Source: Bifidobacterium breve (GTDB lineage Bacteria > Actinomycetota > Actinomycetes > Nanopelagicales > Nanopelagicaceae). From it: DNA of 49,529 bases. Below, one piece after another: positions 42,112 through 46,780 of this stretch. The stretch covers positions 1 through 49,529 of the forward strand of contig CAMCPZ010000006.1 in the NCBI GenBank assembly GCA_945876865.1, written 5' to 3'. Both the position numbers and the translations under genes were made by a program. The notes under the pieces were generated by a model, which was not told where the DNA came from, did no database searches, and saw nothing but the letters and a program-made list of their open reading frames with translations. The number at the start of each line of letters is the position of its first letter. Positions within the stretch are counted from its first letter, which is position 1.

Positions 42112-42876
42112 TTAAGCCACCTTCAAACTGGAGATATATTCTTGGTATTCACTTGGAGTTACTACTTTCACGCTAAAGCGCATCTGGGAGTGGGAACGAC
42201 CACATAAAATATTGCAGAAACCAGGATAGGTGCCGAGTTTGTTTGCACTGAACTCAATATTGTTGGTCACTCCAGGAAGATTTTGGATCTGAATCATGAA
42301 TGCTGGAATCCAGAAACCATGAACAACATCTGTTGAGGTTATTTTAAATTTAACGCGCTCACCTAGAGGAAGTACTAGGGTCGGAGGCTTTGCCGTAGTT
42401 CCAGTAACTATTGGGGCTTCCGGATTGTCACGATAGGTGAATTGCCATGACCATTGAAAAGCATTTACATCAATTAAATGACTGGCTTGGCTATCCGGTG
42501 TGACTTTTACAATTTCAGATTGTTTAACTGCGGTGAAGTAGAAGAGAACTGCAACGATGATGAATGGAATAACCGTGTAAGCAACTTCGACTGGCACGTT
42601 GTACTGAGTTTGCTTTGGAACTTCGTCGCCCTTGCGGCGATGTCGGAACACTGGCCACATAATTAAGATCGCGGTGAAGACTCCAACAACTGCGGCTGCA
42701 ATCCAAGCGCCCTGCCAAAGTGGGATTGTTGTGTCATTCACGCTTGAAACGCCCTTAGGAAATCCCATGCCAGATATGTTTTCTGTGGAGCAAGATGTCA
42801 GAAAGGAAATCGACCCGATTGAAATCCCCGTGAAGAGGGCTCTGGCTAAAGATTTCTTGGTGGGTCTAGAACTCAT
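42112..42876 (-). CDS. ctaC: Cytochrome c oxidase subunit II
   Basis: Lipobox [47 protein letters not shown] CuA site. Confidence 0.96.
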
Positions 42877-42934
42877 TGGATAAGAATATCCCTCGGATTC
42901 GCCTCTTTAACCATGCGGGAGTAGCGTTCGATGC

Positions 42935-43993
42935 GTGGTTTCCATCACCCCAAGTTTCCAATCCGAACCCCGACTCCATGATGCTGCTCGGATGGCACTT
43001 CCCCATATTTTTGAGGTCACTTGGCCAGATCCATCAAAACTTGGCGCCGATTCAAAGAGTGCTGCCCTTCTTTTAAATGAAGCCCGAGAAACCTTTGCTA
43101 GCCATCTGGGAATTCGCACTGATGAAATCCATTTTTTGGGCGAACCGAATCTAGGTTTTCACTTGGGGCTCAGCGGATTGATGTCGAGTCAGAGAAGATT
43201 GGTTTATAGCAACATCGATCGGATGGAAGTCTTTGCAGTAGCCGAGGGCCATACATCCGAAATGCTTGAGGTTGACCCAAATGGTCAGATCAATTTCCCA
43301 GAACTAATGAAGGATGACGTTCTCGCTCTGCAGCTTTGCAACCGCGAAACCGGAACCATTCAAAATGGACGACCAAAATCGCCAGATCTGCTCGCAGGAT
43401 TGTTTGTCGATGCAACTGCCTCCGGCACCAGAATCAAACTTCCGGCAAATTGGAGCACCGCACTCTGGGATTCGACTGCATGGGGCGGACCAAGTGGGCT
43501 TGGAGTGTTTGCCGTTTCGAAGAGCGCTAATTGGAGCAATCCGCTCCCCCATTTAGATGGCCGAATCAATCCTGGACCAGCATCTCTTGCTTTAATTGTT
43601 GCCAGCGCACTTGCGATAGATAGTTGGGTTGCAGATGAGAAGAATCTGGCAGCGAAAATTGCAGCGATAAATAGCGAGATTCGAAGTTACATTTCAAGCA
43701 ATATTCCAGATTCAGATCTTGCACCCGGCGGGGCCGACCATTTAATTAGCGCTTCATTCCTGTATGTAAATGCTGAACAGCTAGTGACAAAGCTTGCGGA
43801 CAAGGGGTATCCCGTGGATTCGGGCTCTGCATGTAGTTCTATCAATATGCAACCAAGTCATGTTCTGGCTGCACTCGGCGTGCTGACCCAAGGAAATATT
43901 CGACTTACAATTCATCACGCAATCACCTTTGAAGAGGTCAAAGAATTTCTAGAAGTTTTATCCCAAACTGTTAGCGAATTGCGTGATAAATAA
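42935..43993 (+). CDS. Cysteine desulfurase-like class V fold protein with PLP lysine absent and Cys loop retained
   Basis: NRETGTIQNGRP, LFVDAT, DSTAWGGPSGLGVFAVS (in place of SAHKFGGPKGVGALYV), YPVDSGSACSSINMQPSHVLAALG (catalytic Cys loop). GTG start. Confidence 0.8.
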   Translation: MVSITPSFQSEPRLHDAARMALPHIFEVTWPDPSKLGADSKSAALLLNEARETFASHLGIRTDEIHFLGEPNLGFHLGLSGLMSSQRRLVYSNIDRMEVFAVAEGHTSEMLEVDPNGQINFPELMKDDVLALQLCNRETGTIQNGRPKSPDLLAGLFVDATASGTRIKLPANWSTALWDSTAWGGPSGLGVFAVSKSANWSNPLPHLDGRINPGPASLALIVASALAIDSWVADEKNLAAKIAAINSEIRSYISSNIPDSDLAPGGADHLISASFLYVNAEQLVTKLADKGYPVDSGSACSSINMQPSHVLAALGVLTQGNIRLTIHHAITFEEVKEFLEVLSQTVSELRDK

Positions 43994-44202
43994 TGATCCT
44001 AGATTGCTTAGGAAAACGTTGCCCACTTCCAATTATTGAACTTGCAAAGGCTCTGGCAGATAAACCGATTGGCTTCACGTTAACGCTCTTGAGCGATGAT
44101 CCCGCCTCCCAGCCTGACCTGATCGCATGGTCACGGATGACCGGAAATTCTGTTGAAACCAGCGGGGCAAACACTTTTCAGATAACTAAGTTAGCCAACT
44201 AA
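43993..44202 (+). CDS. TusA/SirA-family sulfurtransferase
   Basis: LDCLGKRCPLPIIELAKAL (CPxP), LLSDDPASQPDLIAW. TAATG overlap with the upstream desulfurase-like gene. Confidence 0.92.
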   Translation: MILDCLGKRCPLPIIELAKALADKPIGFTLTLLSDDPASQPDLIAWSRMTGNSVETSGANTFQITKLAN

Positions 44203-45180
44203 TCTTGGCTCAAGCTTCGCGCTTACTTCGCCGGCAGCAGCTCCGCCATAGGCCTCGGTAAATCTTGTAATAAATTCAGCTTTTGTAAATCGGTATTCCT
44301 GAGTTCCTTTAATTTCAATACAAAATGTTGCGAGCATCGAACCTATTTGGGCACATCGTTCATGGCTAAGGCCCCAAGCAAGACCTGCAATAAAACCGGA
44401 ACGGAAACAATCACCAACACCAGTCGGATCAATCTTCAACTTCTCTTTTGGCACTCCAACAGTTATTGGTGCTTTGCCATGCTCTTCAACACGCGCACCT
44501 TCGGAACCAAGCGTGATTACCCGAACCGCAACTTTGCTAAAGATTTCGGCATCGCTCCAACCAGTTTTTTGAATGGTCAAAGCAAGTTCGTATTCATTTA
44601 AAAATAAATACCGTGCGCCTTCGATTAACTGCTTGATTGCTTCGCCATCCATTCGAGCCAATTGTTGAGATGGATCAGCAGCGAATGGAATTCCCATGGT
44701 TCGAGCACTCTGGCTGTGGCTCAGCATCGCATCCGGGTCATCCGGTGAAATTATTAGTAAATCGAATTTTCCAGTTTTCTCAACTATCGGTGCGAGCTCA
44801 ATCTCTCTAGCTTCACTCATGGCACCAGGAAAGAAGGATGCAATCTGATTTAACTCTTCATCGGTTGTGACCATAAAGGAGGCGGTTAGTAGCTCTTTAG
44901 AGACCTTTACGTGAGTGGTATCAACGCCATGCCTAGTTAGCCAAGAATCGTAATCCGACCAATCCGTTCCTACTGCCGCGATGAGATATGGGTTTAGACC
45001 TAGCGCACCGATTCCAAATGCAATATTCGCTGCGGTTCCACCGCGTCTGATATCAAGACCATCGACTAAGAAAGAGAGTGAGACTTTATCCAGAGAACCA
45101 ACTACCAAAGAGTCAGTGAACTTTCCGGGAAAAGTCATTAAATGATCGCGCCCGACAGAACCGGCGCAGGCAATCTTCAT
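44191..45180 (-). CDS. adoK: PfkB-family adenosine kinase (mycobacterial AdoK-like)
   Basis: KVSLSFLVDGLDIRRGGTAANIAFGIGALG, QIASFFPGAMSEAR, FAADPSQQLARMDGE, DPTGVGDCFRSGFIAGLA: close to remembered mycobacterial AdoK sequence. Confidence 0.85.
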   Translation of the reverse strand: MKIACAGSVGRDHLMTFPGKFTDSLVVGSLDKVSLSFLVDGLDIRRGGTAANIAFGIGALGLNPYLIAAVGTDWSDYDSWLTRHGVDTTHVKVSKELLTASFMVTTDEELNQIASFFPGAMSEAREIELAPIVEKTGKFDLLIISPDDPDAMLSHSQSARTMGIPFAADPSQQLARMDGEAIKQLIEGARYLFLNEYELALTIQKTGWSDAEIFSKVAVRVITLGSEGARVEEHGKAPITVGVPKEKLKIDPTGVGDCFRSGFIAGLAWGLSHERCAQIGSMLATFCIEIKGTQEYRFTKAEFITRFTEAYGGAAAGEVSAKLEPRLVG

Positions 45181-45203: not shown

Positions 45204-45575
45204 TTAGTTAAAAGAGTCGCCACAGGCGCATGAACCCTGGGCATTTGGATTATCGATTGTGAATCCTTGCTTTTCGATAGTGTCAACGAAATCAATTGAT
45301 GCGCCCATCAAATAAGGCGTGCTCATCTTGTCGGTAACAACACTTACTGCACCAAACTTAGTAACAGTGTCGCCATCTAATGAACGATCATCAAAATAGA
45401 GTTGGTATTTCAGGCCGGAACATCCACCAGGTTGCACTGCAACACGCAGGCTTAGGTCATCGCGACCCTCTTGAGCTAGAAGCGCAGCAACCTTTGCGGC
45501 AGCTACATCGGTGAGTCCAATTCCAGTTGCAGGCGCATTGGAAATTGTTACCTCTTGTGAAGTCTCTGTGCTCAT
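45204..45575 (-). CDS. erpA: Iron-sulfur cluster insertion protein (A-type carrier)
   Basis: LRVAVQPGGCSGLKYQLYFDD, PNAQGSCACGDSF: HesB/IscA/ErpA conserved cysteines. Confidence 0.93.
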   Translation of the reverse strand: MSTETSQEVTISNAPATGIGLTDVAAAKVAALLAQEGRDDLSLRVAVQPGGCSGLKYQLYFDDRSLDGDTVTKFGAVSVVTDKMSTPYLMGASIDFVDTIEKQGFTIDNPNAQGSCACGDSFN

Positions 45576-45628
45576 CGTTCTCCCCATCTAAATTAGATAA
45601 TGAGTAAAGGCTACTCCATAATGTCCCT

Positions 45629-46780
45629 ATGGGCTCATCAAGACTTTCCGAATTGCTCTTGCTCGGCCAAGGTGCCGATCCGAAGAGCGAACGTGGAGTG
45701 TCATGCGATGGCGAACTGCCCGCAGCAAGTGACCCACAATTAGTAGAGCGAGCTCGGGTAGCAAGAGCCGCACTCGGCGATCGTGCGATGGTGTTAGGCC
45801 ACCATTATCAGCGCGATGAAGTAATCCAATTTGCCGACATAACTGGCGATTCATTTAAGTTGGCTCAGGCCGCACAATCCAATGACTCTGCCGAGTTTAT
45901 CTTCTTCTGTGGCGTGCACTTCATGGCAGAGAGCGCCGACATCCTTACCTCGCCAAACCAAAAAATAATTCTTCCCGATTTAGCTGCGGGTTGCTCGATG
46001 GCTGATATGGCAACTGCTAAACAAGTTGACGATTGCTGGAAAGCGCTGGAGAAAGTAGGCGTAGCAAGTAAGACAACTCCAATTACGTATATGAATTCAT
46101 CAGCTGCGATTAAGTCCTTTACCGGAAAAAATGGTGGCGCAGTCTGCACATCCTCAAATGCGATGCGTGCAATGAACTGGGCTTTTGAGAAGGGCGAGAA
46201 AGTCTTATTCCTGCCCGACCAACATTTGGGACGCAACACAGCAGTATTAAACCTAGGATTAAAACTTGAAGATTGCGTTCTCTGGAATCCCTGGAAACCA
46301 AATGGTGGACTTACTGATGCCCAAATTATTGCGGCAAAGGTAATTCTCTGGCGCGGACATTGCTCGGTTCATGGAAGATTTTCACTTGAAAATATAACTC
46401 AGATGCGGGCGAAACTTCCTGGCGTTCAGATTTTGGTTCACCCAGAATGTCAGCATGAAGTTGTTTCAAATGCCGATGTTGTTGGCAGCACCGAGATGAT
46501 TATTCAGACCATAGAAAATTCGGCCCCGGGTAGCAAATGGGCGGTAGGAACCGAATTGAATCTGGTCCAGCGACTGGCAAATAGATTTTCGGATCGCGAA
46601 GTCCATTTCTTGGATAAAACCGTCTGCTATTGCTCTACCATGAATCGAATCGACCTTCCCCATCTGGTCTGGGTGATGGAGTCCTTAGTAGCTGGACGTT
46701 TGGTTAATCAAATCTCAGTAGATTCGCAGACAGCGACTTATGCAAAAGTTGCGCTAGAGCGAATGCTCGCTCTACCGTAG
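45629..46780 (+). CDS. nadA: Quinolinate synthase NadA
   Basis: VLGHHYQRDEVIQFADITGDSFKLAQAA, FCGVHFMAESADILT, LPDLAAGCSMADMA, VCTSSNAM, VHPECQHEVV, TVCYCSTMNRI. Confidence 0.96.
   Translation: MGSSRLSELLLLGQGADPKSERGVSCDGELPAASDPQLVERARVARAALGDRAMVLGHHYQRDEVIQFADITGDSFKLAQAAQSNDSAEFIFFCGVHFMAESADILTSPNQKIILPDLAAGCSMADMATAKQVDDCWKALEKVGVASKTTPITYMNSSAAIKSFTGKNGGAVCTSSNAMRAMNWAFEKGEKVLFLPDQHLGRNTAVLNLGLKLEDCVLWNPWKPNGGLTDAQIIAAKVILWRGHCSVHGRFSLENITQMRAKLPGVQILVHPECQHEVVSNADVVGSTEMIIQTIENSAPGSKWAVGTELNLVQRLANRFSDREVHFLDKTVCYCSTMNRIDLPHLVWVMESLVAGRLVNQISVDSQTATYAKVALERMLALP

Follow-up and report, generated by a model that had tools for sequence, protein, structure and literature searches.

Sulfur-donating enzymes are defined by two residues, the lysine that holds PLP and a cysteine on a loop, and the locus described here raises the question of what becomes of such a protein when only the cysteine is left. 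The window, meaning the whole 49,529-nucleotide stretch that was analyzed, carries on its forward strand an open reading frame of 352 aa with a GTG start (positions 42,935–43,993), called as a group-I (IscS/NifS-type) cysteine desulfurase homologue without the lysine. This frame overlaps as TAATG with that of a 69 aa TusA-family sulfur carrier on the same strand (43,993–44,202), which matches PF01206 (53.5 bits, cutoff 28.6; E 2.2e-14) and has the CPxP cysteine, here as CPLP within LGKRCPLP (44,020–44,031, forward strand). A divergent intergenic region of 58 bp (42,877–42,934) separates the desulfurase homologue from ctaC, the gene for cytochrome c oxidase subunit II, on the opposite strand (42,112–42,876, reverse strand). 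The overlap, the CPLP motif and the 58 bp spacing are thus all present as originally predicted. The other conserved neighbours are a PfkB-type carbohydrate kinase (44,191–45,180, reverse strand), an ErpA-type A-type Fe-S carrier (45,204–45,587, reverse strand) and the quinolinate synthase NadA (45,629–46,780, forward strand). Across the class the gene order is ctaD-ctaC (divergent), desulfurase, TusA, kinase, erpA, nadA, and this shared order supports orthology of the lysine-plus and lysine-minus forms. Among the neighbours of the window gene (TusA, ctaC, kinase, erpA), iscU was not found.

Membership of the class-V aminotransferase fold is indicated by the Pfam profile Aminotran_5 (25.6 bits against a cutoff of 21.5). 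Within NCBIfam the protein matches NifS TIGR03402 (E 1.6e-21) with 76.5 bits against an equivalog cutoff of 530.75 and IscS TIGR02006 with 42.5 bits against an equivalog cutoff of 643.2, and so falls below both. The predicted structure is an IscS/NifS fold, in a high-confidence AlphaFold2 model built from 40 relatives (pLDDT 90.6, pTM 0.90) that is uncertain only at the N-terminus and in the Cys loop at residues 299–305. Top Foldseek matches are all of IscS type (TM 0.84–0.89), among them M. tuberculosis, A. fulgidus and E. coli IscS and human NFS1 complexes, while profile alignment gives A. fulgidus IscS as the best PDB sequence match to the family.

Losses and retentions in the active site were located by alignment, for the lysine site by profile alignment to solved desulfurases, and all codons given here lie on the forward strand. 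Ala182 (43,478–43,480), within DSTAWGGPSG, occupies the position of the Schiff-base lysine (IscS K206) and aligns with the SAHK lysine of T. maritima NifS (1ecx) and with A. fulgidus IscS residue 199. The phosphate-binding SSGT segment is replaced by LGEPNLGF (residues 68–75; 43,136–43,159), the PLP-binding Gln (IscS Q183) by A162, and the PLP-stacking His (IscS H104) by Arg96 (43,220–43,222); position 96 is R in 33 of 36 relatives, and the 14 orthologues from other families all have H there. Kept are N136 and E138 of the segment NRETG (residues 136–140; 43,340–43,354; IscS N155 region), each conserved in at least 97% of 213 rows, together with Asp159 (43,409–43,411; IscS D180) and Arg323 (43,901–43,903; IscS R354). 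Also kept is the mobile catalytic-Cys loop with the helix after it, DSGSACSSINMQPSHVLAALG (residues 295–315; 43,817–43,879; low pLDDT at 299–305), which carries Cys300 (43,832–43,834; IscS C328). These motifs had been read from the window beforehand, along with VDA and YSNIDRMEV, and every one is found in the protein.

His104, Asp180, Gln183, Lys206 and Cys328 have been reported as indispensable in IscS (PMC9978102); here the His, Gln and Lys are gone (R96, A162, A182) and the Asp and Cys are retained (D159, C300). Judged as a group-I desulfurase enzyme, the protein thus lacks the SAHK lysine, the His and the Gln, and has the cysteine of the GSAC/GSSC loop. A lysine contributed by another part of the chain was also considered, as this would have undone the original prediction. 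A column scan gave no conserved substitute: only K35 is present in more than 60% of Nanopelagicaceae rows, and 97% of the lysine-bearing orthologues likewise have Arg or Lys there, so this candidate was rejected. The claim that the protein is no longer a PLP desulfurase is therefore well supported, the equivalents of K206, H104 and Q183 and the phosphate loop all being gone; from its sequence it is very unlikely to work as one. The retained N136, D159 and R323, which lie beside the old substrate site, suggest that the pocket still matters for structure or for binding.

For the wider comparison, whole genomes and named contigs yielded 213 distinct family proteins. Some form of homologue occurs in 60 of 60 relatives. 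In the window's own family, the Nanopelagicaceae of the Nanopelagicales (acI; Planktophila, Nanopelagicus), the lysine is absent in 36 of 36 close relatives and present in 0 of 114 distinct proteins. Outside the Nanopelagicaceae it is present in 62 of 99 proteins and absent in 37, the latter spread over about a dozen groups (f22, f23, f26 with 1/5, f29, f31, f32, f33, f37 with 2/6, f38, f39, f41 and f44), and some of the families concerned have genomes of 3–4 Mb. The replacement is mainly Ser or Ala in the Nanopelagicaceae, and a large part of f33 and f44 has Asp. A phylum-wide search gave weaker matches outside the class, in which orthologues and ordinary desulfurases are taken together. Conservation across the family (213 rows) is highest in the Cys loop, and Cys300 is found in 212 of the 212 proteins readable at this position, whether or not they have the lysine or a TusA. 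A cysteine-based role is therefore the natural reading.

The original prediction had allowed that the loss might be family-wide. It is not: SAHKWGG is intact in most other actinomycete families at the same locus, in orthologues divergent from ctaC and linked to TusA, and the loss is recurrent. A maximum-likelihood tree of 78 rows, built without the PLP-site columns, requires 9 state changes, at least 4 of them forced by well-supported branches. With long branches removed 8 changes remain, and a tree holding all lysine-less rows together is rejected (p-AU 0.007), which disposes of a single ancestral loss. The tree itself gives no direction; since desulfurases generally carry the lysine, its presence is treated as the ancestral state. 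A small number of f38 rows, in particular L184, have long branches or are non-syntenic and may be paralogues. In an f33 subgroup (L139, L141, L145) the otherwise invariant Asp159 is His and His309 is Gln, with the Cys retained. One genome (G430) holds two lysine-less copies (L152 and L153) at ctaC loci, with Ile and Ser at the lysine site, and this double copy is possibly contamination by a related strain.

The window gene is under purifying selection that is somewhat weaker than that on its neighbours: where dS was measurable, dN/dS (Nei-Gojobori) against the nearest orthologues is 0.07–0.22, compared to 0.03–0.07 for ctaC and the kinase. The higher values fit partly relaxed constraint. A sequencing or assembly error, or a recent pseudogene, was rejected on these dN/dS values, on the reading frame being open in all rows and on the lysine being missing from 114 of 114 proteins.

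Coupling to TusA, which the original prediction proposed, stands only in part. All 151 linked TusA sequences contain CPxP, and desulfurase-TusA fusions near ctaC, which the original prediction had mentioned, do exist both with the lysine (L057, L087, L187 and L197, in f19) and without it (L131, L136 and L176, in f37 and f31), the latter being useful for testing carrier function in a single chain. On the other side, no TusA lies downstream at 47 of 113 Nanopelagicaceae loci, and a whole-genome search, which could miss a very divergent TusA, found none in 15 genomes with the lysine-less gene, 12 of them single-contig. TusA as an obligate partner was consequently rejected. The suggested service to cytochrome oxidase is likewise only partly supported. 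Eight Planktophila-like genomes (L303–L310) have the desulfurase-TusA pair cleanly excised, the kinase being joined to ctaC with the two open frames less than about 80 bp apart, yet they keep ctaC, ctaD, the kinase and erpA, so that an essential service was rejected as unlikely. In a further genome (L311, genus g5) the kinase is gone too, and erpA, ctaC and ctaD are adjacent.

Because lysine-bearing desulfurases are present elsewhere, the loss of PLP chemistry at this locus leaves the cell still with a desulfurase. The window genome was searched for another functional SufS and has a complete SUF operon of SufB, SufD, SufC, SufS, SufU and a SufT-like protein, with the SufS bearing SAHK. In the sister Nanopelagicaceae genomes L313, L314 and L315 a group-I desulfurase with SAHK directly adjoins mnmA; no such mnmA-adjacent gene was found in the window's 83%-complete assembly. 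This same-genus protein shares the superfamily and is a Cys-loop enzyme, but differs from the window protein in having kept SAHK. It presumably serves tRNA thiolation as a dedicated pair with MnmA. Thiolation of tRNA through TusA and MnmA was rejected as the main job of the lysine-less protein on account of this arrangement; that task probably has its own enzyme. The group includes lineages that are abundant in fresh water and require reduced sulfur compounds (PMC7527133).

The protein probably handles sulfur or a metal in a role for which the cysteine alone suffices. The best explanation, to which we give roughly an even chance on the evidence above, is a pseudo-desulfurase acting as a thiol or persulfide relay that is fed by another source. 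The PLP internal aldimine would be unable to form, as the lysine is gone and so are the His, the Gln and the phosphate loop that hold the cofactor, and selection would maintain the protein for its mobile-loop thiol. The sulfane sulfur reaching Cys300 would come not from PLP chemistry of the protein itself but from a separate donor, which might be sulfide, a low-molecular-weight persulfide or an active desulfurase; SufS or the mnmA-adjacent group-I desulfurase with SAHK could supply the persulfide. Cys300 would then hand the sulfur to an acceptor, TusA where this is present, by analogy with E. coli IscS-TusA, and where TusA is gone another acceptor would have to serve. A relay to TusA cannot be the whole function, because 15 genomes with the lysine-less gene have no detectable TusA. 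Counted against the relay are the dispensability of the gene in 8 relatives and a dN/dS above that of ctaC and the kinase. The broader proposition is that the module turned repeatedly and independently from a PLP enzyme to a thiol/persulfide carrier without PLP (or a ligand for a metal or cluster), keeping only the mobile-loop Cys, and that it became fixed and TusA-independent in the Nanopelagicaceae; we regard this as falling just short of evenly balanced.

The structural analogy for the TusA step comes from PDB 3LVJ, the solved E. coli IscS-TusA complex, with TusA docked on IscS. The IscS fold and the TusA partner are alike in the two systems (Foldseek TM 0.85–0.86 to the 3LVJ chains), but E. 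coli IscS is an active PLP enzyme, whereas the window protein is without the PLP residues and can dispense with TusA. The lysine-bearing actinomycete orthologues, either separate from TusA or fused with it by ctaC, have the locus order and Cys loop in common with the window protein; they retain SAHKWGG, the histidine of EH and the phosphate loop, all of which it lacks, and by these residues they are presumably active desulfurases.

Among the alternatives, a ligand role in Fe-S assembly survives best, though we think it rather unlikely. By analogy with archaea, the loop Cys would ligate a [2Fe-2S] cluster being assembled on SufU or ErpA as scaffold and provide no sulfur. The closest precedent is A. 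fulgidus IscS, which is reported to have no desulfurase activity, has Asp in place of the lysine and contributes a Cys ligand to the IscU cluster (PMC7585200); it is also the top PDB sequence match, f33 and f44 likewise have Asp at the lysine site, erpA is two genes away and such a role would be independent of TusA. Both A. fulgidus IscS (PDB 4EB5, 4HVK, 4R5F) and Methanosarcina acetivorans IscS1 have a group-I fold in which the catalytic lysine is replaced and the Cys loop kept. However, these archaeal proteins are paired with IscU, while the actinobacterial one is linked to TusA and ctaC, with the lysine mostly changed to Ser or Ala and more of the PLP site lost. The window protein therefore resembles the A. 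fulgidus type in its IscS fold, replaced lysine and Cys loop, and departs from it in having no iscU gene pair. No IscU neighbours it, the linked partner, if there is one, is TusA, and erpA is retained in genomes that have no desulfurase gene.

The three remaining alternatives are less likely than either the relay or the cluster ligand. A decaying remnant, in which the pair is being lost from streamlined genomes and the loss of the lysine was the first step of inactivation, is improbable. It would account for the disappearance of TusA from 47 of 113 loci, the clean excision in 8 relatives and the dN/dS above that of the neighbours, but after the lysine was lost Cys300, E138, G297, S298 and R323 stayed essentially invariant, every row has an open frame, dN/dS is well below 1, and families with genomes of 3–4 Mb have lost the lysine as well. 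Slightly more doubtful still is a repurposed ligand-binding or regulatory protein, whose emptied pocket (E70, R96, W183, D159, R323) would bind another small molecule, with the Cys as a redox switch. E/D70 and R/K96 are themselves conserved within the Nanopelagicaceae, as if a new pocket had been selected, but R96 and E70 are not common to most of the other lysine-less groups. Continued PLP dependence, by non-covalent PLP with another base or by a partner-supplied lysine, is very improbable: D159, N136 and R323 are retained, and some PLP was still bound by IscS K206A, for which very slow turnover was suggested, with H104 as the proposed stand-in (PMC9978102), but here the H104 equivalent is also gone (R96), as are Q183 and the phosphate loop, and no conserved lysine has replaced the lost one.

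IscS without the lysine is already known from archaea. Searches of the open part of PubMed Central gave nothing direct on actinobacterial desulfurase-TusA fusions, desulfurase pseudoenzymes or ctaC-linked desulfurases, and no description of a lysine-less form being fixed in an abundant family of freshwater bacteria, arising repeatedly or being uncoupled from TusA. At this locus of fixed order the lysine has been lost several times and the cysteine never, which separates PLP chemistry from any other role that the cysteine may have. The relatives with and without the lysine, with and without TusA, and with no gene at all make up a ready comparative series. The lysine-less proteins can readily be taken for active cysteine desulfurases, which they very likely are not. 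Six contigs titled 'Bifidobacterium breve' (L208, L251, L257, L264, L265 and L284) are Nanopelagicales MAGs that contain the lysine-less gene, and their titles look mislabelled.
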